Positions 18,088 through 27,247 of a stretch of DNA of 27,257 nucleotides are shown piece by piece. The notes below the pieces were generated by a model, which did not search any database, was not told where the DNA came from, and saw only the letters and a list, made by a program, of their open reading frames with translations. A program made the position numbers and the translations under genes. Position 1 is the stretch's first letter; every line of letters begins with the position of its first letter. The stretch is from a virus: IMG/VR virus record IMGVR_UViG_3300027782_002542, positions 1-27,257 of that record; one strand, 5' to 3'.

Positions 18088-18116
18088 ATTATACATCAAA
18101 AGCCTTTGTAAATCAA
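18088..18116 (-). promoter_or_regulatory. Sigma70 promoter for tRNA-Gly(TCC)
   Basis: TTGATT (18116-18111), 17 bp, TATAAT (18093-18088), with GATG before the -10 box. The -35 box overlaps the end of the YkuK-like gene. Confidence 0.85.
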
Positions 18117-18595
18117 GCAGCCTTTTGATGCGACATAATGTGTTTTAATCTATCAGCGCAGTAACTTGCAGCGAATGCATTTGGCTTAACCAAAGGAATC
18201 ACGTTACACATACCACGAATGTAACCAGTCGCTTCATTGATTACACAAGAACTACCATGCATTTCGTTGGGGTTGATATCCAAGTGAACTTCAACGATTC
18301 TATCTTCCAACACGTCATGTAACTTGTTGTACAACTCTGCAATTTTATATACTTCATTCATCAACCGCATACGTGGTCTGTTTTTCTTTTGATCCCAGTC
18401 ACGTTCACGTTGAACTTCACCGAAAATCTTACAACCATGTTTGCCATCAATGTGAACAACAATAACAAGTGTGTAATCTGCGTACCAATCATTTCCAATA
18501 TTAAATCTCTCAGAGTCTCCACCAATATAGATCTTTGTCTCTGGACTTTGACTTTCGATGAATGTTTTAACTTCATCAATATCGATACGCTTCAT
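18113..18595 (-). CDS. YkuK/DUF458 RNase H-like protein
   Basis: A 160-aa protein of the ribonuclease H-like YkuK family. KIYIGGDSER with D27 is the first acidic strand, followed by YTLVIVVHIDGKHGCKIFGE, a helix with LMNEVYKIAEL, VEVHLDINPNEMHGS and the characteristic end VKPNAFAASYCADR. The family fold implies a nucleic acid or nucleotide substrate but the activity is uncharacterised. It begins 8 bp after the D,D-peptidase-like gene, with an AGGAGC ribosome binding site, and its end carries the -35 box of the tRNA-Gly promoter. Confidence 0.85.
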   Translation of the reverse strand: MKRIDIDEVKTFIESQSPETKIYIGGDSERFNIGNDWYADYTLVIVVHIDGKHGCKIFGEVQRERDWDQKKNRPRMRLMNEVYKIAELYNKLHDVLEDRIVEVHLDINPNEMHGSSCVINEATGYIRGMCNVIPLVKPNAFAASYCADRLKHIMSHQKAA

Positions 18596-20134: not shown

Positions 20135-20162
20135 TGCAATCTAATAATTTATACATTAAAAC

Positions 20163-20241
20163 TGGCTCCGAGTGTGAGGATCGAACTCACCTAGTCATTG
20201 ATTAACAGTCAAGTCCTTGCACCATGCTTGGATTTCTCGGA
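20163..20241 (-). tRNA. tRNA-Asn (anticodon GTT)
   Basis: Acceptor TCCGAGA/ACTCGGA with an A-A mismatch at the seventh pair, anticodon loop CTGTTAA, T-loop TTCGATC, discriminator G, CCA encoded. The D-arm is longer than usual. Confidence 0.9.
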
Positions 20242-20260
20242 ATAATACTTACTACTTATA

Positions 20261-20335
20261 TGGTGGTGATAGTTGGATTCGAGCCAACGACCTACTGCGT
20301 ATGAAGCAGTTGCACTACCGCTGTGCTATATCACC
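20261..20335 (-). tRNA. tRNA-Met (anticodon CAT), elongator type
   Basis: Acceptor GGTGATA/TATCACC with a G1-C72 pair, anticodon stem ACTGC/GCAGT around TTCATAC, CCA encoded. G1-C72 excludes an initiator. A CAT tRNA could also be a lysidine-modified Ile tRNA. Confidence 0.88.
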
Positions 20336-20401
20336 ATGTTAAAACATACTAGCATGAGCCTGTTGTCATTTATCCCTGCGGGGAACTAATATGTTTTAAT
20401 A
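20336..20401 (-). ncRNA. Fold-back spacer element E5 between tRNA-Leu(TAG) and tRNA-Met
   Basis: The spacer ends 20339-20352 and 20386-20399 are complementary over 14 bp, with one pair being G-U in minus-strand RNA. The 33-nt interior holds a UCCC/GGGA hairpin with CGCA loop and an AUGA/UCAU hairpin. The stem begins 2 nt after the CCA of tRNA-Leu(TAG) and ends 3 nt before tRNA-Met. Confidence 0.6.
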
Positions 20402-20478
20402 TGGTGCCCCAAGCGAGACTCGAACTCGCAAAATTTGGCTTCTAAGACCAACACGTATACCAATTCCGTCATCGGGGC
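20402..20478 (-). tRNA. tRNA-Leu (anticodon TAG) with short variable loop
   Basis: Acceptor GCCCCGA/TTGGGGC, a Leu-type D-arm (ACGGAATTGGTATACGT), anticodon loop CTTAGAA, discriminator A, CCA encoded. Only five bases (ATTTT) lie between the anticodon stem and the T-stem, so the long class II variable arm is missing. Confidence 0.9.
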
Positions 20479-20678
20479 ATTGCTTCCTCTCTGCGGTGGT
20501 AATTATAGTACATCAAGATACGACGCTATCGTACCCATCACACGTACCTTCCACCCACTTCACGCACCAGAGAGAACTCTCGTATTGCCAACGCTAGTTA
20601 GGTTTAACTAGAACCACCCGTAGATGTCACTCTACTTCTATCATGCGGGTCACACTAGCCGACGACACTCGGCATGTT
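20479..20678 (-). other. 200-nt structured spacer without a gene
   Basis: No credible reading frame. Minus-strand RNA can form several perfect hairpins: GCCGA/TCGGC just after tRNA-fMet, nested ACCCG/CGGGT and GTAGA/TCTAC, CTAGTTA/TAACTAG with an AACC loop, and TACGA/TCGTA. A TATAAT sequence follows the last of these, but without a matching -35 box. Confidence 0.4.
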
Positions 20679-20757
20679 TGGTTGCAGGGGAAGGATTCGC
20701 ACCTCCGATCTCCAGCTTATGAGACTGGCGGGGACGGCTAGACTCCCCTACCCTGCG
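20679..20757 (-). tRNA. tRNA-Met initiator-like (tRNA-fMet, anticodon CAT)
   Basis: Position 1 is C and position 72 is A, an unpaired C1-A72 that marks bacterial initiator tRNAs, with ends CGCAGGG and CCTGCAACCA. Anticodon loop CTCATAA on stem CCAGT/GCTGG. The three G-C pairs usual in the initiator anticodon stem are absent and the T-loop reads TGCGAAT, so the identity is probable rather than certain. Confidence 0.85.
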
Positions 20758-20760
20758 ATA

Positions 20761-21117
20761 TTATATTAACTCATGTTCCAGGTCCACAGACTCGCTGTAA
20801 TAACCATTGGATTCACCCAGCCATCTCACATCCACATAACCCTTGCGAGTAGCGAACTTGTAGAATGTCCAAGTTACTGATTCGTGATAGTCTTTATCAA
20901 AGTAAGCTGGAGTTTCTCCAGACACTTCTTCAGCTATCAACAGTGGTTCACCTACCAAGTCAGACAAGTCACCAACGATATCTTCTATCGAAACAGACTC
21001 GCAACAATCTTGATAGTGGAAGAATCTGAATCTTTCAGTTTCGTTCGCAAACACCATCTCATAACCATCTTGTGTCACCGAAGTAAACACTTTTCCAACC
21101 ATATTTAACATATTCAT
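20761..21117 (-). CDS. DUF7448-like conserved phage protein, 118 aa
   Basis: MNMLNMVGKVFTSVTQDGYE opens the protein. HYQDCCESVSIEDIVGDLSD, GEPLLIAEEVS and ESVTWTFYKFATRKGYVDVR WLGESNGYYSE follow in order. The QDCCE...GDL.DL.G.P and SNGYYSE blocks define a family widespread in phages and plasmids; I recall it as DUF7448. It is an all-beta protein of unknown function. An AAGGAAATAAAA ribosome binding site precedes the ATG; a second in-frame ATG lies six bases on. It lies between tRNA-Asp and tRNA-fMet. Confidence 0.82.
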   Translation of the reverse strand: MNMLNMVGKVFTSVTQDGYEMVFANETERFRFFHYQDCCESVSIEDIVGDLSDLVGEPLLIAEEVSGETPAYFDKDYHESVTWTFYKFATRKGYVDVRWLGESNGYYSESVDLEHELI

Positions 21118-21141
21118 TTTTATTTCCTTACAACAATAACT

Positions 21142-21216
21142 TGGCGATGCGTGGGAGAATCGAACTCCCGTCTTCGGATAGACAATCCGAGATAATGACC
21201 ATTATATGAACGCACC
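21142..21216 (-). tRNA. tRNA-Asp (anticodon GTC)
   Basis: Acceptor GGTGCGT/ACGCATC, anticodon stem TCGGA/TCCGA around TTGTCTA, T-loop TTCGATT, discriminator G, CCA encoded. Confidence 0.94.
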
Positions 21217-21408
21217 TAAAATAGGATAAGCTACTTGTTTCCACACAAGCCCTTAATTGAGCAGTTACTCTGTCCATCCCTTTTATTCTAACGTCTGTGT
21301 GCAGAGGGAACTGCCTATCAGATTCTGGATTTCTCCGCTTACGGTCTTCTGCCACCGAACCTCTATCGCTAGTTAAACGCTACTTTAACGAAAGTAGTAA
21401 CGGGATTC
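21217..21408 (-). other. 192-nt structured spacer without a gene
   Basis: No supported gene. Minus-strand RNA contains CTACTTT/AAAGTAG (loop CGTT) soon after tRNA-Tyr, a longer stem GCAGTT with AACTGC extended by CTCTG/CAGAG, and CTTGT/ACAAG. No promoter-quality boxes were seen. Confidence 0.4.
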
Positions 21409-21494
21409 TGGTGGAGAATCTTGGAATCGAACCAAGTGTGCCGTAAGGCGACGGATTTACAGTCCGCTGCAGTCACCAATGCTGCTCATTCTCC
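21409..21494 (-). tRNA. tRNA-Tyr (anticodon GTA), copy 1
   Basis: Acceptor GGAGAAT/ATTCTCC, anticodon stem GCGGA/TCCGT around CTGTAAA, a long variable arm (CGCCTTACGGCACA) as expected for class II, T-loop TTCGATT, discriminator A, CCA encoded. Confidence 0.95.
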
Positions 21495-21620
21495 ATATAC
21501 CATTAGTTTTGTTGTCGCACTATTTGCTAGATCGCAACGGAATTGGTGGCCACACTACCGTTTATTGATAAAGTTACTTAGGGTTGACGTTTACCCAATG
21601 GCTTACGACAACAAAACTAA
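21495..21620 (-). ncRNA. Fold-back spacer element E4 between tRNA-Glu and tRNA-Tyr
   Basis: A perfect 19-bp inverted repeat (21499-21517 with 21606-21624) closes the spacer. The upstream arm includes the discriminator and CCA of tRNA-Glu, so the tRNA 3' end is itself part of the stem. The 88-nt interior holds further short hairpins, for example GGGT/ACCC and ACGG/CCGT. Confidence 0.65.
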
Positions 21621-21695
21621 TGGTACTCGATAGGGGAATCGAACCCCTCTTACCTACGTGAAAGGCAGGTGTCCTAACCGATAGACGAACCGAGT
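21621..21695 (-). tRNA. tRNA-Glu (anticodon TTC)
   Basis: Acceptor ACTCGGT/ATCGAGT, anticodon loop CTTTCAC, T-loop TTCGATT, discriminator A, CCA encoded. It is preceded by a GGTGGTT/AACCACC hairpin. Confidence 0.94.
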
Positions 21696-21698
21696 AAA

Positions 21699-21724
21699 GG
21701 TGGTGGTTTTTAGAGAACCACCAA
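21699..21724 (-). promoter_or_regulatory. GGTGGTT/AACCACC hairpin at the 5' side of tRNA-Glu
   Basis: A 7-bp stem ending a few bases before the mature 5' end of tRNA-Glu. There is no clear T-tract, so a processing or attenuation role is more likely than termination. Confidence 0.45.
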
Positions 21725-21730
21725 ACTCTT

Positions 21731-21837
21731 GGCTGACCTTTGGTCATTTAATGTTTCCTGCTCAGCGTTTTGACATGCATCCCTTGCGGGCTGACCATCA
21801 AGGTCCATTTAATGCGTCCTGCGTTGCGTTTTGAAAC
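21731..21837 (-). repeat. Two imperfect tandem copies of a ~45-nt RNA motif
   Basis: Copies at about 21731-21777 and 21788-21837. In minus-strand order each has CAAAACGC, GCAGGA, CATTAAATG, a GACC/GGTC hairpin and CAGCC. The conserved blocks are separated by diverged loops. The pair lies in the leader between the promoter at 21900-21928 and tRNA-Glu. Confidence 0.65.
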
Positions 21838-21899
21838 AACCTTCTCTTTGCCTCATGCTACGTATTTACCGTAGACTCAGAGAGGACTTCAGAACTTTT

Positions 21900-21928
21900 A
21901 TTATACATCAACTTTGATTAAAAGTCAA
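21900..21928 (-). promoter_or_regulatory. Sigma70 promoter for tRNA-Glu and downstream tRNAs
   Basis: TTGACT (21928-21923), 17 bp, perfect TATAAT (21905-21900), GATG before the -10 box. The -35 box overlaps the stop of the 69-aa gene. The leader before tRNA-Glu is about 200 nt and contains the tandem repeat. Confidence 0.85.
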
Positions 21929-22134
21929 GCAATTTCTTCAACCAAAGAGTAGCGAACCACTGATAATTTGAAGCAGTCGATACGACGTTCTGCATTTTGC
22001 ATAGCATCATGCACAACCACATCACCACAATCAGCGTACTTCTCTACATCAACAACAGTCAGAGTGTTTTTGCTACCATCAGCAGGAACATACTTCTGAC
22101 CAACTTCAATTTTGTATTTTTGATAATCAAACAT
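21925..22134 (-). CDS. Conserved phage protein, 69 aa
   Basis: MFDYQKYKIEVGQKYVPADG, SKNTLTVVDVEKYADCGDVV and RRIDCFKLSVVRYSLVEE. A compact beta protein whose VGQKYVPADGSKNTLTVVDV and ADCGDVVV blocks are familiar in T4-like phages, probably an SH3-like or DUF1653-type fold. I choose the second of two adjacent ATGs because it sits six bases after AGGAG. The promoter at 22165-22193 drives it. Confidence 0.82.
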   Translation of the reverse strand: MFDYQKYKIEVGQKYVPADGSKNTLTVVDVEKYADCGDVVVHDAMQNAERRIDCFKLSVVRYSLVEEIA

Positions 22135-22143
22135 CATATACTC

Positions 22144-22158
22144 CTAATCAATCATCAT
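22144..22158 (-). other. Leaderless mini-ORF ahead of the 69-aa gene
   Basis: The promoter's -10 box is followed after six bases by ATG ATG ATT GAT TAG, so the predicted mRNA begins with a four-codon reading frame that stops at the AGGAG of the real gene. It may couple or regulate initiation, or may be fortuitous. Confidence 0.4.
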
Positions 22159-22164
22159 AAGACT

Positions 22165-22193
22165 ATTATACATCAGATCTGAATTAAAGTAAA
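22165..22193 (-). promoter_or_regulatory. Sigma70 promoter for the 69-aa gene
   Basis: TTTACT (22193-22188), 17 bp containing TTTAATTC and GATG, then perfect TATAAT (22170-22165). It lies between tRNA-Cys and the gene. Confidence 0.85.
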
Positions 22194-22203
22194 CACATTT
22201 CTG

Positions 22204-22226
22204 AAAGACCTTCAGATCCGTAGGGT
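22204..22226 (-). terminator. Weak GACC/GGTC hairpin after tRNA-Cys
   Basis: GACCCTAC ... AAGGTC followed by TTTCAGAAA. A diverged member of the CCCTAC-type hairpin family, placed between the end of the tRNA-Cys group and the next promoter. Confidence 0.4.
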
Positions 22227-22234
22227 CATTCAAC

Positions 22235-22310
22235 TGGAGTGCATGACAGGAGTCGAACCTGCATGATACGGATTTGCAATCCGCTCCCTAGCCTTTCGGG
22301 TCACATGCAC
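22235..22310 (-). tRNA. tRNA-Cys (anticodon GCA)
   Basis: Acceptor GTGCATG/CATGCAC, anticodon stem GCGGA/TCCGT around TTGCAAA, T-loop TTCGACT, discriminator T, CCA encoded. Confidence 0.93.
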
Positions 22311-22315
22311 ATATC

Positions 22316-22393
22316 TGGTACCCTTGCTCGGATTCGAACCGAGAGAACTTCTCCTTTTGAGAGAGATGACTTTACCAATTTGTCCACAAGGGC
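22316..22393 (-). tRNA. tRNA-Leu (anticodon CAA) with short variable loop
   Basis: Acceptor GCCCTTG/CAAGGGT, Leu-like D-arm (GACAAATTGGTAAAGTC), anticodon loop CTCAAAA, T-loop TTCGAAT, discriminator A, CCA encoded. Only about six bases separate the anticodon and T stems, in contrast to the normal long arm of tRNA-Leu(TAA) nearby. Confidence 0.88.
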
Positions 22394-22395
22394 AT

Positions 22396-22470
22396 TGGTG
22401 GGCTGACTGAGAATTGAACTCAGACTCGACCGATTATGAGTCGGTTGCTTTACCATTAAGCTATCAGCCC
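22396..22470 (-). tRNA. tRNA with anticodon CAT (Ile2 by lysidine, or elongator Met)
   Basis: Acceptor GGGCTGA/TCAGCCC, anticodon stem ACCGA/TCGGT around CTCATAA, T-loop TTCAATT, CCA encoded. The arm CGACTCATAATCG matches the bacterial Ile2 tRNA, so decoding of AUA after lysidine modification is likely, but not proven. Confidence 0.88.
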
Positions 22471-22474
22471 GAAC

Positions 22475-22549
22475 TGGTGCGGCATAGTGGAATCGAACCA
22501 CTATTCTGGCTTTAGAAGAACCATGTCCTATCCGTTGAACGAATGCCGC
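22475..22549 (-). tRNA. tRNA-Arg (anticodon TCT)
   Basis: Acceptor GCGGCAT/ATGCCGC, anticodon loop CTTCTAA, T-loop TTCGATT, discriminator A, CCA encoded. Reads AGA/AGG. Confidence 0.94.
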
Positions 22550-22554
22550 AAAAA

Positions 22555-22642
22555 TGGTACGAGTAGCCAGAATCGAACTGGCATGCCCATTACAGGCGAG
22601 GGATTTTAAGTCCCTTGTGTCTACCTATTCCACCATACTCGC
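22555..22642 (-). tRNA. tRNA-Leu (anticodon TAA)
   Basis: Acceptor GCGAGTA/TACTCGT, anticodon stem AGGGA/TCCCT around CTTAAAA, a normal long variable arm (CGCCTGTAATGGGCAT), T-loop TTCGATT, CCA encoded. Confidence 0.95.
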
Positions 22643-22647
22643 AATTT

Positions 22648-22734
22648 TGGCGGAGAGTGTGGGAGTCGAACCCACTCGCCCATTTCTGAGCGTCGGATTA
22701 GCAATCCGATGCCTTACCATCCAGCCCACTCTCC
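22648..22734 (-). tRNA. tRNA-Ser (anticodon GCT)
   Basis: Acceptor GGAGAGT/ACTCTCC, anticodon stem TCGGA/TCCGA around TTGCTAA, long variable arm, T-loop TTCGACT, discriminator G, CCA encoded. Five bases separate it from the phosphoesterase stop. Confidence 0.95.
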
Positions 22735-22739
22735 TTGTC

Positions 22740-23315
22740 TTACATCGTTGGTCCATTACCATTCTTGAAACCTACTATGCCACCTTCTTCTTCGATGCGT
22801 TTGATAACATCTTCAAACAAGATTGGTCTAAAGTCTGTTTGCTCAACACACACGCAATGATATCTTGTATCAATGATTTCACCACCCATCTTCTTAAACA
22901 TAACTCTATTGCTATGCGTATGACCATGGATGTTTACACCAAAACGACCAAGACTTTCTGGGTGCAAAGGTATGTGGCTCAAAATCATTCCATTCATTAC
23001 ATGATAAGCACGCAACTCACGAAAATGTTCACGGTATTCGGCATCTCGAAAGATGTCATGATTACCACGAATCAAAACTTTATCACCATTCAACCTACGC
23101 ATGATTCCCATTGCTTTGCGGTTGATCACTACGTCACCAAGATGATAAACTTTATCAGTTGGCTTTACAGTTTCGTTCCAACGCTTAACCATTTCCTCAT
23201 CCATTTCTTCGGCTGAGTCCCATGGTCGCAATTTAGTCACACCATCATTACGCATAAACTTGCATATGCCCATGTGACCAAAGTGCGTATCGCTAACTAA
23301 AAATACACTTGGCAT
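22740..23315 (-). CDS. Calcineurin-like metallophosphoesterase embedded in the tRNA array
   Basis: A 191-aa protein with DTHFGH (D9, H11), YHLGDVV, IRGNHD, ILSHIPLH and IHGHTHSN, the complete dimetal phosphoesterase set, in the short form common in phages. The reaction is hydrolysis of a phosphoester of unknown identity. It lies between tRNA-Tyr and tRNA-Ser with only five bases on the 3' side, so it is co-transcribed with tRNAs. An AGGAGAACGAT ribosome binding site precedes the ATG. Nucleotide or RNA phosphate processing would fit the location but is inference. Confidence 0.9.
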   Translation of the reverse strand: MPSVFLVSDTHFGHMGICKFMRNDGVTKLRPWDSAEEMDEEMVKRWNETVKPTDKVYHLGDVVINRKAMGIMRRLNGDKVLIRGNHDIFRDAEYREHFRELRAYHVMNGMILSHIPLHPESLGRFGVNIHGHTHSNRVMFKKMGGEIIDTRYHCVCVEQTDFRPILFEDVIKRIEEEGGIVGFKNGNGPTM

Positions 23316-23333
23316 ATCGTTCTCCTATAAAAT

Positions 23334-23419
23334 TGGTGGAGCGAGTAGGGATCGAACCTACCTGTACCGAAGTACCACTGGGTTACAGCCAGCTAGAACA
23401 CCATTGTTCCATTCACTCC
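23334..23419 (-). tRNA. tRNA-Tyr (anticodon GTA), copy 2
   Basis: Acceptor GGAGTGA/TCGCTCC, anticodon stem GCTGG/CCAGT around CTGTAAC, long variable arm (GGTACTTCGGTACAG), T-loop TTCGATC, discriminator A, CCA encoded. The sequence differs widely from copy 1, so it is not a recent duplicate. Confidence 0.94.
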
Positions 23420-23425
23420 ATAATT

Positions 23426-23517
23426 TGGCGGAAAGCAGAGGAGTCGAACCCCATCCCATTTCTGAGAACCTAGTTTTCAAGGCTAGTCGCAGGACCATCC
23501 CCGCTGCATTACTTTCC
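23426..23517 (-). tRNA. tRNA-Ser (anticodon TGA)
   Basis: Acceptor GGAAAGT/GCTTTCC, anticodon loop CTTGAAA with a C-A mismatch closing the stem, long variable arm, T-loop TTCGACT, discriminator G, CCA encoded. 92 nt. Confidence 0.93.
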
Positions 23518-23523
23518 ATATCT

Positions 23524-23600
23524 TGGTGCGTCCTGAGAGATTCGAACTCCCAACCTCAGGTTTCGAAGACCTGCTTTCTATCCAGTTGAATTAAGGACGC
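23524..23600 (-). tRNA. tRNA-Arg (anticodon TCG)
   Basis: Acceptor GCGTCCT/AGGACGC, anticodon stem CAGGT/ACCTG around CTTCGAA, T-loop TTCGAAT, CCA encoded. Confidence 0.94.
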
Positions 23601-23601
23601 A

Positions 23602-23676
23602 TGGTACCTTGTGACGGGATCGAACCGCCGACCTTCTCCTTGTAAGGGAGACACTCTACCGCTGAGTTAACAAGGC
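23602..23676 (-). tRNA. tRNA-Val (anticodon TAC)
   Basis: Acceptor GCCTTGT/ACAAGGT with a terminal G-U pair, anticodon stem TCTCC/GGAGA around CTTACAA, T-loop TTCGATC, CCA encoded. One base separates it from tRNA-Arg(TCG). Confidence 0.94.
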
Positions 23677-23686
23677 ATAAAAATTT

Positions 23687-23760
23687 GGTGGAGGATGGGA
23701 GGATCGAACTCCCACTTCATGCTTGCAAAGCACATGTGCTCCCATTATCACTAATCCCCC
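23687..23760 (-). tRNA. tRNA-Ala (anticodon TGC)
   Basis: Acceptor GGGGGAT/ATCCTCC, anticodon loop TTTGCAA on a stem with two G-U pairs, T-loop TTCGATC, CCA encoded. The usual alanine G3-U70 pair is present (G3 opposite T). Confidence 0.92.
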
Positions 23761-23768
23761 AAAAATAC

Positions 23769-23842
23769 TGGTTCTCTGTAGTGGAATTGAACCACTGTCG
23801 CTCGATTATCAGTCAAGTGCTCTACCATTGAGCTAACGGAGA
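23769..23842 (-). tRNA. tRNA-Ile (anticodon GAT)
   Basis: Acceptor TCTCCGT/ACAGAGA with one C-A mismatch, anticodon stem CTTGA/TCGAG around CTGATAA, T-loop TTCAATT, discriminator A, CCA encoded. Confidence 0.92.
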
Positions 23843-24003
23843 ATAATTTCGATTTTCATCTTCCACTACTTACAACTGCTTCCCAATTTATCGTCCATCG
23901 GCACCCGTGGTAGGGCTCACGATGCTCATCGGTCTGACATTCTAGTGTCAGTGATCCTTGGGATAGGACTGCTACGCCTTAACCTGCGTAGCATCAGGTA
24001 AAC
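23843..24003 (-). other. 161-nt structured spacer without a gene
   Basis: No credible ORF. Minus-strand RNA has a perfect 8-bp hairpin TGCTACGC/GCGTAGCA ten nt after tRNA-Phe, CTGACA/TGTCAG, CGATG/CATCG, and CCC/GGG around ACCACG. It has no long-range closing stem like E1-E5. Confidence 0.4.
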
Positions 24004-24079
24004 TGGTACCGAGAGACGGGATCGAACCGCCCACACCTTGTGCTTCAAACAAGTGCTCTACCAACTGAGCTATCTCGGC
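24004..24079 (-). tRNA. tRNA-Phe (anticodon GAA)
   Basis: Acceptor GCCGAGA/TCTCGGT with a terminal G-U pair, anticodon stem CTTGT/ACAAG around TTGAAGC, T-loop TTCGATC, CCA encoded. Confidence 0.94.
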
Positions 24080-24088
24080 AATTTTCTT

Positions 24089-24162
24089 TGGGGTGACTAA
24101 TGGGAGTTGAACCCATACGATCAGAATCACAATCTGAGATGCTACCGCTACATCATAGTCAC
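24089..24162 (-). tRNA. tRNA-His (anticodon GTG)
   Basis: Acceptor GTGACTA/TAGTCAC, anticodon stem TCAGA/TCTGA around TTGTGAT, discriminator C73 as expected for His, CCA encoded. The base before G1 is U in RNA, not the G-1 that bacterial tRNA-His normally encodes. Confidence 0.92.
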
Positions 24163-24180
24163 ACCAAAGAAAACTACTAC

Positions 24181-24267
24181 CATATTGAAACACACTCAAA
24201 CGGATCCTTTTCGCCTATCCCTCATCAGCCGTTTCAGACAGGGTAGGGTAGAGTATGTTTCAATATG
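24181..24267 (-). ncRNA. Fold-back spacer element E3 after the degenerate tRNA
   Basis: A 17-bp stem (24181-24197 with 24251-24267, one G-U pair) begins directly at the 3' end of the degenerate tRNA-like element. Inside are AAACGG/CCGTTT and other short helices. Its arms are related in sequence to those of E2. Confidence 0.6.
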
Positions 24268-24268
24268 C

Positions 24269-24346
24269 GAACTCATGTAGGCAGGAATCGAACCTGCGTT
24301 TGCCTCTTGAATCGAGGCTTTCTTACCACTAGAAGACTACGAGTTC
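24269..24346 (-). tRNA. Degenerate tRNA-like element (anticodon position TTC), possibly a pseudogene
   Basis: It has an acceptor CTCGTAG that pairs with CTACATGAG once a two-base AT insertion is ignored, and a D-arm TTCT/AGAA with U8 and A14-GTGG-A21. The anticodon stem GCCTC/GAGGC surrounds loop GATTCAA, and the T-arm GCAGG/CCTGC has loop TTCGATT. Position 33 is A instead of U and no CCA follows (GTT or GCA instead). It may have been a Glu tRNA that decayed. Confidence 0.5.
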
Positions 24347-24410
24347 ATCGGGGTCATGACTCCCGATTATGGTTGGGGTTAATTACTCCCCTCTGCTGCT
24401 CCCGAAGGCT
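24347..24410 (-). other. Spacer with two stable hairpins after element E2
   Basis: Minus-strand RNA can form GGGG/CCCC (24371-24392 region) and TCGGG/CCCGA around AGTCATGAC immediately ahead of the degenerate tRNA. No gene. Confidence 0.35.
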
Positions 24411-24418
24411 ATACATTT

Positions 24419-24504
24419 ACCATATAGAAACACACTCAACGACATAGGCAATTGGATCTCCCTGTCTTACTGAACCAACTTCAGTGAATGTGTTTGTATA
24501 TGGT
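24419..24504 (-). ncRNA. Fold-back spacer element E2 after tRNA-Lys(TTT)
   Basis: 20-nt arms (24419-24438 and 24485-24504) pair with one mismatch and one G-U. The upstream arm includes the discriminator and CCA of tRNA-Lys(TTT). The interior has CTGAA/TTCAG and GACAGG/CCTATGTC hairpins, so a three-way junction is predicted. Confidence 0.62.
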
Positions 24505-24576
24505 AGGGGCACAGGGACTCGAACCCTGAATTGGCAGATTAAAAGTCTGCTGTGATAACCATTTCACTATACCCCC
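24501..24576 (-). tRNA. tRNA-Lys (anticodon TTT)
   Basis: Acceptor GGGGGTA/TGCCCCT, anticodon stem GCAGA/TCTGC around CTTTTAA, T-loop TTCGAGT, discriminator A, CCA encoded. Confidence 0.93.
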
Positions 24577-24579
24577 ATA

Positions 24580-24654
24580 TGGTCCACTCGCTGAGACTTG
24601 AACTCAGAACTCGATGATTAAGAGTCATGTACGTTACCATTACGCCACGAGTGG
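24580..24654 (-). tRNA. tRNA-Lys (anticodon CTT)
   Basis: Acceptor CCACTCG/CGAGTGG, anticodon loop CTCTTAA on a stem with one C-C mismatch, T-loop TTCAAGT, discriminator A, CCA encoded. The acceptor stem is unlike tRNA-Lys(TTT). Confidence 0.88.
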
Positions 24655-24757
24655 TTGTACGTATTTTTTTGATTTTACGTGCCAACTAAGACCATACGGG
24701 GGATCTTAGCGACACTAGCTTTTACCAGATTTTCGCTTCATACAATTTCCTTTTTAA
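24655..24757 (-). other. Leader between the promoter in E1 and tRNA-Lys(CTT)
   Basis: No gene. Minus-strand RNA can form CTAAGATC/GGTCTTAG (8 bp with one G-U, loop CCCCGTAT) and ACGTA/TACGT just before the tRNA. Both may be processing signals. Confidence 0.4.
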
Positions 24758-24786
24758 ATTATCTAACCAAATAAAAGTACACTCAA
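24758..24786 (-). promoter_or_regulatory. Sigma70-like promoter overlapping element E1
   Basis: TTGAGT (24786-24781), 17 bp, GATAAT (24763-24758). It would start transcripts at about 24751 toward tRNA-Lys(CTT). Most of it overlaps the downstream arm of the E1 inverted repeat. Confidence 0.6.
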
Positions 24787-24849
24787 GTCCGTGGCTCGGA
24801 AGGAACTATACCCACGATGGCTTGCGCCAGTCCTAGTGTACTTTTATTT
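24769..24849 (-). ncRNA. Fold-back spacer element E1 after tRNA-Gln
   Basis: A perfect 15-bp inverted repeat (24769-24783 with 24835-24849) begins on the last base of the CCA of tRNA-Gln. The 51-nt interior contains TGGC/GCCA capped by a GCAA tetraloop, and CGTGG/CCACG, predicting a three-way junction in minus-strand RNA. Confidence 0.65.
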
Positions 24850-24922
24850 GGCACCCGAAGTAAGAATCGAACTTACAATAACAGATTCAAAGTCTGCTGT
24901 GTTACCACTACACCATTCGGGA
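24849..24922 (-). tRNA. tRNA-Gln (anticodon TTG)
   Basis: Acceptor TCCCGAA/TTCGGGT with an unpaired first position, anticodon loop CTTTGAA, T-loop TTCGATT, discriminator G, CCA encoded. First tRNA of the array; its promoter is at 24990-25018. Confidence 0.92.
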
Positions 24923-24989
24923 ACATTTGGTACGCAAATTTTTAAAGATCTAAAAGCTAAGTAGACGATGCCACTCAACCAGAACACTT

Positions 24990-25018
24990 ATTCTACATCA
25001 AGTAAGAATAAAAATCAA
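24990..25018 (-). promoter_or_regulatory. Sigma70 promoter at the head of the tRNA array
   Basis: TTGATT (25018-25013), 17 bp including TTTATTC and GATG, TAGAAT (24995-24990). A leader of about 60 nt runs into tRNA-Gln. Confidence 0.78.
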
Positions 25019-25033
25019 CAACTTTCTGAAAGA

Positions 25034-25050
25034 CCCTACATCATGTAGGG
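25034..25050 (-). terminator. CCCTAC/GTAGGG hairpin
   Basis: Perfect 6-bp arms with a 5-nt loop, followed by GTCTTTC. It is the second of two tandem terminators between the 43-aa gene and the tRNA promoter. Confidence 0.6.
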
Positions 25051-25053
25051 TAA

Positions 25054-25092
25054 AACAAAAAACCCTCTGGATTTTCATCTCAGAGGGTTTTG
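25054..25092 (-). terminator. Strong intrinsic terminator after the 43-aa gene
   Basis: On the minus strand AAACCCTCTG pairs with CAGAGGGTTT around an 11-nt loop, followed by TTTTG. It insulates the tRNA array from the upstream genes. Confidence 0.92.
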
Positions 25093-25110
25093 GTAAAGAG
25101 ACTTGTAGTC

Positions 25111-25242
25111 TTACATCTTTTTACCAAAACCCTTCGCATCAATCTCATATGATAGCGCAAATGCTGGGCGTGTGCTATTCCAGCCAGCTACGAGTGGTAA
25201 CTGTTTATGCATTCTGGATTGTAAACACTGTATCGATTTCAT
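25111..25242 (-). CDS. 43-aa small protein; probable leaderless mRNA
   Basis: MKSIQCLQSRMHKQLPLVAG followed by WNSTRPAFALSYEIDAKGFG and KKM. A basic protein of unknown function. The frame is bounded by its own promoter and a strong terminator, which supports it despite its size. The -10 box (25250-25255) ends seven bases before the ATG, so the mRNA would begin at or one base before the start codon and no Shine-Dalgarno sequence is possible. Confidence 0.72.
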   Translation of the reverse strand: MKSIQCLQSRMHKQLPLVAGWNSTRPAFALSYEIDAKGFGKKM

Positions 25243-25249
25243 AGTAGAA

Positions 25250-25278
25250 ATTATACTTCCCTTTTGATTTAAAGTCAA
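25250..25278 (-). promoter_or_regulatory. Sigma70 promoter for the 43-aa gene
   Basis: TTGACT (25278-25273), 17 bp, TATAAT (25255-25250). Seven bases separate it from the ATG at 25242. Confidence 0.87.
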
Positions 25279-25294
25279 CAACAATTTTGTAAGA

Positions 25295-25311
25295 CCCTAC
25301 ACACAGTAGGG
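25295..25311 (-). terminator. CCCTAC/GTAGGG hairpin after dCMP deaminase
   Basis: Perfect 6-bp stem with loop TGTGT, followed by GTCTTAC. It lies between two promoters, about 20-45 nt downstream of the predicted +1 of the first. Confidence 0.6.
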
Positions 25312-25323
25312 TTTACTTATATT

Positions 25324-25830
25324 CTATTTAGGTATATTATACGCCCAAACCACTTGCAAGTCAACACTTTTTGAAATATATTTTTCAACTTCAATGTTAC
25401 ACTTGGTCAAAAAGTCAGTGCCAAGTGTATCACGATATGACTCTCTGTAATAAACTTTCTTCACACCTGCGCCATAAATGAGTTTAGCGCAATTGATGCA
25501 AGGAGCATGAGTGCAGAATAAATCGGCACCATTGCCTGATTCGCCATCACGTGCAAGTTTAAGAATAGCATTAGCTTCTGCATGAATAACCTCATCTTTC
25601 GTTTTTATCTCTTTAGTAAAATTATTGTAGTCATAGCGAGGATCTGTCTTCGCAACATCAACTACATGTTCGCATTCATTAGTCCATCCAGCTGGCATAC
25701 CATTGTAGCCAATTGAGATGATACGATTGTCTTTTACAACAACAGCACCAACCTTCAATCTAGTTGCACTAGACAACTCTGCGAATCTCTCCGCAGTGTC
25801 CATGAATGCATCAATCCACTTCTTTTTCAT
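25324..25830 (-). CDS. cd: dCMP deaminase
   Basis: A 168-aa zinc deaminase converting dCMP to dUMP for thymidylate synthesis. The metal site is HAEANAI (about 84-90) with the catalytic Glu, and PCINCAK with the Cys ligands. The N-terminus FAELSSATRLKVGAVVVKDN and the GYNGMPAGWTNECEH segment match T4 gene cd and relatives. T4-like phages use it in dNTP synthesis. A promoter begins inside its final codons. It follows the DUF6433-type gene by about 46 bp. Confidence 0.95.
   Translation of the reverse strand: MKKKWIDAFMDTAERFAELSSATRLKVGAVVVKDNRIISIGYNGMPAGWTNECEHVVDVAKTDPRYDYNNFTKEIKTKDEVIHAEANAILKLARDGESGNGADLFCTHAPCINCAKLIYGAGVKKVYYRESYRDTLGTDFLTKCNIEVEKYISKSVDLQVVWAYNIPK
25336..25364 (-). 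promoter_or_regulatory. Sigma70 promoter inside the 3' end of the dCMP deaminase gene
   Basis: TTGACT (25364-25359), 17 bp, perfect TATAAT (25341-25336). With +1 near 25329 and the CCCTAC hairpin about 20 nt on, it could give a very short RNA or, on readthrough, a leadered mRNA for the 43-aa gene. Confidence 0.7.
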
Positions 25831-26353: not shown

Positions 26354-27247
26354 TTAAAAGTCATCAAGTTCATCCAACAGCAAACGACAACGATTCTCGA
26401 TCAGATAATTCATGACCGACATCTTGTCGCCAGTTGGCTTGTTATTTAGATACGCATCAACAATAGACTGTGCTACATCTTCTGGAATAAATTCAAAGTC
26501 AATCAGTTGTAGATTACGATGCCAGTTGCGACGTTCATCATCATTACGACATGCATCAAAACCTTTCTCAAGGAAGTCATCGAGTCGCTGAGAACTAATG
26601 CGTTTTTGGCGCACACCTTCTTGTAAGAAGATATCGTCTGGTGACAATATGTTTGGAATACCATCATCACCTGCTTTTACTACATGGGTGATAAACTTCT
26701 CATGCAACTCTCGCTTGGTGGCTGTGATCTGTTTCTTTTGCATTGGCGAGTACTGCGAAACATTACCCCACTTTTGCAACTGAATAAAGTCACCATCAGA
26801 TGAAAGAATCAAAATCTTTTGTGGATCTTCCATCAATCCCTGTTGAACGAATCCATTCGTTTGAGACCACTTAGCCATAACAGCAATAACGTCATCTGCT
26901 TCAGCACGATCGATGTGGATAACTTTCCATGGAAAATGCTTGGAGATATCATTACGCATCTCGGATAACGTATCAAAGATTAGAGTCCAATCCAATTCAG
27001 AAGCATCACGTGCTTTCTTACGACCAGCTTTGTAGTATTGGAATACATCTCTGCGCCAGTACTTACGACCATCGCAACAGATGACTAACTCGCCATATTC
27101 TTTACCATACTTTTTCTTGTATGACTTGATTGTTGATAGGGTTACATGGCGAATAAGGTTTTTAACCTCAGACTCAGTACCTTTCAACTCTCTCTGGAAT
27201 GTCAAGATGGCAGATAGTGCCACCTGACTATAATCAACTAAAATCAT
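26354..27247 (-). CDS. rnh: T4-type RNase H (FEN1-like 5'-3' exonuclease)
   Basis: A 297-aa flap endonuclease/exonuclease family protein that removes RNA primers from lagging-strand fragments. Seen are MILVDYSQVALSA with the first metal Asp, the ICCDGRKYWRRDVFQYYKAG arch region, IHIDRAEADDVIAVMAKW with the metal-binding AEADD, and LSSDGDFIQL; a helix-hairpin-helix region follows (DGIPNILSPDDIF). Full length for T4 RNase H. The ATG is 10 bases from the right edge, so no promoter can be seen. Confidence 0.94.
   Translation of the reverse strand: MILVDYSQVALSAILTFQRELKGTESEVKNLIRHVTLSTIKSYKKKYGKEYGELVICCDGRKYWRRDVFQYYKAGRKKARDASELDWTLIFDTLSEMRNDISKHFPWKVIHIDRAEADDVIAVMAKWSQTNGFVQQGLMEDPQKILILSSDGDFIQLQKWGNVSQYSPMQKKQITATKRELHEKFITHVVKAGDDGIPNILSPDDIFLQEGVRQKRISSQRLDDFLEKGFDACRNDDERRNWHRNLQLIDFEFIPEDVAQSIVDAYLNNKPTGDKMSVMNYLIENRCRLLLDELDDF

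Follow-up and report, generated by a model that had tools for sequence, protein, structure and literature searches.

The virus record IMGVR_UViG_3300027782_002542 of IMG/VR is a fragment of 27,257 bases (its full length is referred to below as the window) that carries a tRNA array on the minus strand. An earlier note on this DNA had picked out five spacers between tRNA genes, E1-E5, whose ends are complementary, and had offered that they might be devices for tRNA 3' maturation or protection, or else stable RNAs released from the array. We found that the latter is the best fit, since such elements have structured interiors that are conserved in each family and change hands as whole units, and RNAIII of phage T5, which is annotated as a stable RNA, shows the same anatomy. 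E1-E5 are probably exchangeable structured non-coding RNAs (the 'cargo'), each held in a terminal stem (the 'frame') that would enable its excision from the transcript of the tRNA array. This assignment is drawn from comparative sequence analysis, and it leaves the interpretation in the earlier note, taken overall, partly supported.

Framed RNAs in the window and its relatives

The positions of the five elements and of the tRNA genes that adjoin them (as called by ARAGORN) are as follows; bp, base pairs.

24767..24851, minus strand: E1, framed RNA after tRNA-Gln(TTG); 5' arm 24851-24835 (starting with CCA), 3' arm 24783-24767 (ending with UGG), 17/17 bp
24418..24505, minus strand: E2, framed RNA after tRNA-Lys(TTT); arms 24505-24485/24438-24418, Watson-Crick at 19/21 positions, the other two being a C-C mismatch and a U-G pair; interior with two hairpins
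24178..24268, minus strand: E3, framed RNA after a tRNA-Glu with a G-CA end; arms 24267-24251/24197-24181, 17 bp, one U-G included
21498..21625, minus strand: E4, framed RNA after tRNA-Glu(TTC); stem 21498-21517/21606-21625, 20/20 bp with CCA/UGG
20332..20406, minus strand: E5, framed RNA between tRNA-Leu(TAG) and tRNA-Met; stem 20332-20352/20386-20406, Watson-Crick at 19/21 positions, reaching into both tRNAs
24849..24922, minus strand: tRNA-Gln(TTG), host of E1
24501..24576, minus strand: tRNA-Lys(TTT), host of E2
24273..24343, minus strand: tRNA-Glu(TTC), host of E3, encoded 3' end G-CA
21621..21695, minus strand: tRNA-Glu(TTC), host of E4
20402..20478, minus strand: tRNA-Leu(TAG), host of E5
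20261..20335, minus strand: tRNA-Met(CAT), the opening bases of which close the 3' arm of E5

The existence of the five fold-backs, in the tRNA sense, is confirmed and goes well past what chance would give; their stems are longer than had been described, and their coordinates needed slight correction. It can be seen that in E1, E2, E4 and E5 the first C of the tRNA CCA opens the 5' arm and UGG closes the 3' arm; the earlier note had rightly placed the CCA within the arm of E2 and E4, but its list was incomplete, as E1 and E5 share this feature. The 3' arm of E5 ends in UGG(UG), which already contains the start of the tRNA that follows (Met, 20335), and the CACC of tRNA-Leu is paired with GGUG, these same first bases of tRNA-Met. 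E3 is the exception: the 3' end encoded by its tRNA-Glu is G-CA, which lacks one C of the CCA, and this CA is where the stem begins. The G-U pairs claimed for E2, E3 and E5 were confirmed, and the three elements with two internal hairpins in their predicted folds are E1, E2 and E5. Folding of each of the five elements was 4.7-5.9 standard deviations better than that of dinucleotide shuffles (0 of 200 for each).

We collected 350 loci, mostly from uncultured relatives on viral contigs, using two protein scans (with the RNase H gene at 26354-27247 and the RNaseH-like gene at 18113-18595 of the window) and two arm-motif scans. The cultured RNase H proteins nearest to that of the window come from a Synechococcus phage (45% identity) and from Methylophilales phages (40%). 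The 1901 unique inter-tRNA spacers were searched for stems starting no more than 3 bases from a tRNA 3' end, with a threshold score of at least 28. This was reached by 319 of the 1901 spacers and by 10 of 1901 shuffled ones, and the score distribution was two-peaked; E1, E2, E4 and E5 score 39, 39, 45.5 and 36, respectively, and no shuffled spacer out of 1901 reached 36. Behind CCA-ended tRNAs, 291 of 316 stems started exactly at the first C. The description of the arm as beginning at or near the tRNA 3' end is therefore correct for most stems, which are flush at the CCA, but the frame was also seen without a tRNA in front, and in phage CW742 (see below) it is set off from the tRNA.

The arm motif AGTGTGTTTCWATATGG gave 153 matches in the viral loci; 145 of them had a tRNA no more than 1 kb away, and in 142 of these the motif was on the strand of that tRNA. 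Bacterial and archaeal genomes totalling 257 Gb yielded 14 matches, just two of which fell in tRNA arrays, each on a short contig from a metagenome bin. We conclude from this distribution of the motif that the frame is a phage feature. Within the protein-sampled arrays the frame followed particular tRNAs, namely Gln(TTG) in 39/53, Glu(TTC) in 34/67, Lys(TTT) in 20/51, Leu(TAG) in 12/58 and Thr(TGT) in 8/59 cases, with almost no frames behind other tRNA types, and the motif-sampled arrays showed the same preference for Lys, Glu, Gln and Leu. The P values for this preference (to 1e-35) are nominal, as relatedness among the arrays was not corrected for.

The earlier note had also proposed that pairing is selected in the RNA, and both arm covariation and the excess of G-U pairs bear this out. 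Across 166 unique arm pairs, positions 4-17 were paired in 96% of cells, compared with 62% when partners were shuffled (maximum 65% in 200 trials), and double substitutions were found at every stem position. Scored symmetrically on the tRNA-sense strand, G-U outnumbered A-C by 305:30 outside position 8, which points to pairing of RNA in the tRNA sense; for distant inverted repeats at the same loci the ratio was 553:198. When all stem positions were taken together, position 8 included, the array stems could not be separated from the distant repeats in their G-U and A-C counts, and the contrast was clear once position 8 was handled separately. At this position an A-C mismatch recurs in 50 of 211 stems, and at position 16 a U-G pair in 110 of 211, indicating that the stem has conserved irregularities too. 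We conclude that, by the pattern of substitutions, pairing of the stem is itself under selection.

Clustering of 320 elements by cargo gave 158 clusters, 110 of them singletons, counts that are approximate: some tandem elements had been captured as one, and for this reason single linkage placed different cargos together in cluster 0. In the 13 aligned members of the E4 family there are 35 pairs, 27 with compensatory changes; 95% of cells were paired, compared with 74% in shuffles, and the covariation score was 0.572 compared with 0.185 (0/500 shuffles). The E4 cargo also has the invariant motifs GUAAC, AUA and GCAWAUAGUG. A second cargo family, of about 220-250 nucleotides, has 51 pairs, 32 with compensatory changes, and on this covariation we take a conserved RNA structure to be established for these two families. 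When families with at least two distinct members were considered, 28 of 45 occurred behind more than one tRNA type. The E5 cargo, for example, is found near-identical behind tRNA-Lys (locus L307) and tRNA-Gln (L276) with its arms altered in step, E3-related cargo lies elsewhere behind tRNA-Ala, tRNA-Val and tRNA-Lys, and the E2 cargo is found also in L189 and L220.

Exchange of cargo can be followed among close relatives of the window. In L003, with an RNase H 98% identical to that of the window, the flanks of the Lys site match, and an unrelated unit takes the place of E2 over the whole stretch from CCA to UGG. In L005 (RNase H 96%) E1 has likewise given way to a different unit; the E1 unit is also present in L003 and L004. 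Where the same tRNA was compared with both of its 80-nucleotide flanks at least 80% identical, the cargo belonged to a different family in 35 pairs and to the same family in 17. Spacers of homologous arrays without complementary ends would have spoken against the earlier note, and the comparison went the other way: most of the orthologous sites compared keep a stem while the interior changes, an exception being L004 (RNase H 98%), which is without E2, tRNA-Glu and E3. As mis-assembly at repeated arms could mimic exchange in metagenomes, cultured phages matter here. These alignments lead us to conclude that the frame is kept and the cargo exchanged between phages.

Cultured phages and known RNAs

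The tRNA region of T5 (AY543070) has annotated stable RNAs with no function assigned in the annotation, among them RNAIII, RNA2H and RNAIV. Like E1-E5 these three are non-coding RNAs among tRNA genes, in the tRNA sense, with a long terminal stem (27, 26 and 23 pairs, respectively), and the position of E1-E5, on the tRNA strand between tRNA genes, appears to be that of T5-type array RNAs. The RNAIII stem opens with the CCA that ends RNAI and closes with the first bases of tRNA-His. It therefore resembles E1, E2, E4 and E5, in which the 5' arm likewise opens at the CCA of the preceding RNA (E3 opens at CA), but the upstream RNA in T5 is a CCA-ended stable RNA, RNAI, and not a tRNA. RNA2H and RNAIV differ from E1-E5 in that their stems are not CCA-anchored. 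For RNAIII and RNA2H the ends given in the annotation are staggered inside the stem with a 2-nucleotide 3' overhang, as would be expected of RNase III. Nine T5-like phages all retain GCCACAATT...AATTGTGGC as the outer stem at the RNAIII site (the last base being T in S147) around at least five unrelated cargo sequences, with a six-base stub in S124, and the inner half of the stem varies with the cargo and is still paired.

A comparable arrangement was found in the Straboviridae, where the spacer between tRNA-Gln(TTG) and tRNA-His holds a CCA-to-UGG frame, CCAAATTAATATT...GAATATTGATGTGG, in CHI14, JD18, Merlin and PM2 (four genera), and the interiors differ among these four phages. The layout is that of the frames of E1-E5, the arm sequence is different, and the records examined carry no RNA annotation at this spacer. 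In CW742 a long stem lies a few bases off the CCA, and the Melville spacer repeats the CW742 arm sequences behind a further insertion, so that the flush position is usual and not obligatory.

When E2 and E4 were compared by blastn with 50,697 phage records, which include T5-like phages, no homologue was found (E2 gave one weak chance match to cultured phages, E=0.09; E1, E3 and E5 were not searched individually), and one further cargo family gave nothing usable against cultured phages. For E2 and E4, the elements compared, no similarity of cargo or arms to the T5 RNAs was seen. The link to cultured phages is thus one of architecture only, and we conclude that the T5 RNAs and E1-E5 have, in their sequence layout, the same architecture, which is not demonstrated descent.

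Several known RNAs were considered as identities for E1-E5. Species 1 and 2 of T4 (rnaC and rnaD) are also non-coding and lie directly 3' of a tRNA (tRNA-Arg); they were rejected as homologues since they have no CCA-anchored stem (best score 13-13.5) and there was no blastn match of E2 or E4, and long paired ends of the frame type are missing from them as well. GOLLD and ROOL are large structured phage RNAs near tRNA islands (PMC12286853). They are far larger than E1-E5, and both, along with any other Rfam family, were rejected because E1-E5 matched no Rfam covariance model. Separately from this, GOLLD RNAs whose model span includes a tRNA were observed in frame-bearing arrays (L197 8336-8801, L219 8247-8702, L115 1317-1780 and L138 1448-1910), and the GOLLD of L197 and that of L219 are directly followed by a frame-like stem that has no CCA. 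A hammerhead ribozyme was considered for E3 (CUGAUGAG...CGAAA) and dismissed, as there was no Rfam match to E=2, no stem II could be seen by eye and the motif is not retained in E3 relatives. Nor is a tRNA or tRNA-like gene the general content of the frame, as a T-arm-like string is present in a few cargos and in none of E1-E5. Where it does occur (L131, L104, L094 and others), the T-arm-like segment lies beside the 3' arm, which gives the impression of a tRNA-like domain built onto the frame.

The frames have a counterpart in precursor stems of rRNA and in small RNAs (sRNAs) matured by RNase III, in which complementary flanks also join both ends for this enzyme; CJnc190, for instance, is an sRNA matured by RNase III via an intramolecular duplex (PMC8687705). 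Both rRNA precursors and CJnc190 differ from the frames in lying outside phage tRNA arrays and in having no exchangeable cargo. We did not find the architecture described in the open-access literature, which does not cover older subscription papers on T4 and T5 RNAs; papers on GOLLD and ROOL and general sRNA papers were found, and a review from 2025 on small RNAs of phages (PMC12197685) nowhere uses the terms tRNA, phage T4 or phage T5.

Proposed excision of the cargo and alternative explanations

In the explanation that we favour, the tRNA array would be transcribed as one long RNA, within which a frame of 17-21 bp starts flush with the preceding RNA, normally at the CCA of a tRNA, and ends in UGG, often with the first bases of the next tRNA. 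A double-strand-specific RNase, most likely of the RNase III type, would cut both arms inside the stem, so that the cargo would be released as a stable RNA with a short stem and a 3' overhang, and the tRNA would keep some additional bases until trimming restored its CCA end; to judge from T5 RNAIII, the cut in the 5' arm would fall after stem position 7 and before position 8. If another tRNA comes next without a gap, the border on that side would be set by RNase P. From phage to phage the frame stays and the cargo changes. RNase III is probably the cutting enzyme, by analogy with the annotated ends in T5, and E1-E5 are presumably transcribed and stable in the phage of the window, with its enzyme and cut sites of the kind proposed and with a cargo that may be of benefit, perhaps in anti-defence.

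A number of points weigh against excision of the cargo in this manner. E1-E5 are known here from their sequence, and for the T5 RNA ends GenBank annotation is the sole source; the annotated ends of RNAIV, moreover, give an overhang of about 1 nucleotide and not 2. Stems of 17-21 bp, taken alone, are short for a bacterial RNase III, and rnaC and rnaD of T4 are without frames. Nor does a mere excision handle account for why the frames favour Gln(TTG), Glu(TTC), Lys(TTT) and Leu(TAG) tRNAs so strongly. The first three of these tRNAs share the xm5s2U34 anticodon class, which is the target of several anticodon nucleases; this could hint at anti-defence and is not evidence for it.

The bias to few isoacceptors would suit a stem that serves the tRNA, burying the CCA so as to block or time 3' maturation or to shield it from exonucleases, with the interior being only a loop, and so would the flush position in 291 of 316 stems and the tRNA-His of the window, in which a leader UGG pairs with the tRNA's own CCA. 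However, the interiors are conserved, covarying structures that move between tRNAs, frames are found away from tRNAs and the same tRNA is unframed in the close relative L004. Because frames occur without tRNAs and the cargo is conserved in its own right, we consider a tRNA-serving role improbable; the 3'-maturation device put forward in the earlier note is not the primary role, given the frames with no preceding tRNA and that of CW742, which stands off from the tRNA.

Mobile DNA would also account for arms that hardly vary around unrelated interiors, for the presence of one interior after tRNAs of different types and for the clean replacement of units among genomes that are otherwise near-identical. 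The arms would then be the terminal inverted repeats of an element that is non-autonomous and inserts at the 3' ends of tRNAs. Transposon insertions should be found in either orientation, though, while the motif copies near tRNAs follow the tRNA strand in 142 of 145 cases; in the tRNA sense G-U exceeds A-C 10:1, no duplication of a target site could be seen at the few sites compared by eye, and the frames covary and are not copied intact. With orientation fixed and G-U pairs tolerated, we regard a DNA transposon as quite unlikely, and a transposable element with terminal inverted repeats was rejected as an identity on its strand bias and on the absence of target duplications at those few sites. 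The exchange borders, which fall at the arms or just outside them, would also agree with a frame that is chiefly a recombination site for shuffling of cargo by homologous exchange, with pairing secondary. We think this more doubtful still, since the arms of exchanged units differ and covary, which indicates that pairing itself is selected, and the inner stem half in T5-like phages changes with the cargo and stays paired. Finally, the arms repeat within arrays and could confuse metagenome assembly, so that mis-joins, or easy pairing of tRNA-rich sequence by chance, might be invoked. Shuffles do not reproduce the stems, and for the pattern as a whole this is refuted by the same frames and exchanges in separately sequenced cultured T5-like and T4-like phages; we give such an artefact hardly any credence.

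Excision of framed cargo thus being preferred, a wider possibility can be put forward tentatively, although we would not bet on it: that large phages have a modular RNA-effector system, in which one excision frame on tRNA 3' ends serves for traded structured RNAs that act against host defences (for example, tRNA-cutting nucleases) or in takeover, the T5 stable RNAs included. In such a system the frame would sit above all on Gln-UUG, Glu-UUC, Lys-UUU and Leu-UAG tRNAs, and the set of RNAs that it carries would change fast. The tRNA regions of both T4 and T5 carry annotated stable RNAs of unassigned function, and the T5 kind is now tied to a wide pattern of constant terminal stem, tradable cargo, many families and tRNA preference. 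This pattern predicts a release route for the stable RNAs, and turnover of their content is seen to be quick. T5 in Escherichia coli K-12, with an rnc mutant, provides a test system both for the excision step and for the purpose of the cargo.

Other features of the array

ARAGORN identified 29 tRNAs in the window, and two further likely tRNAs that it missed were recognised by eye on the minus strand. The one at 20160-20240 is a likely tRNA-Asn (anticodon GTT), and that at 23424-23517 is a serine-like tRNA with a long variable arm, for which the Rfam match is a weak tRNA-Sec. In tRNA-His (24082-24173, minus strand) the leader and trailer lengthen the acceptor stem (UUUUCUUUGG...CCAAAGAAAA), with the CCA buried against the leader UGG; the same leader is present in L004 and L010. 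Among related arrays, tRNAs with the anticodon CTA (Pyl according to ARAGORN) recur, for example at L228 5463-5538, with 13 in the protein-sampled loci, and these are possible amber suppressors. ARAGORN also called five transfer-messenger RNA (tmRNA) genes over the first 234 loci, and a tmRNA-like gene with the tag ANESSFLMAA lies at L220 1508-1881, on a phage contig.

Two sigma-70-like promoters, both assigned by consensus match only, lie upstream of framed elements.

24990..25018, minus strand: candidate promoter TTGATT-17-TAGAAT, upstream of tRNA-Gln and E1-E3
21900..21928, minus strand: candidate promoter TTGACT-17-TATAAT, upstream of tRNA-Glu and E4

Strong sigma-70-like sites of the form TTGACT/TTTACT-17-TATAAT are repeated on the minus strand, at 25336-25364, 25250-25278, 22165-22193 and again 21900-21928, upstream of array segments and neighbouring genes, and three of these four match the consensus at 11/12 positions. 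The region upstream of tRNA-Gln (24923-25320, minus strand) folds with a z of about -4.8 relative to shuffles and has recurring CCCTAC...GTAGGG hairpins, which are probably terminators of the preceding genes.

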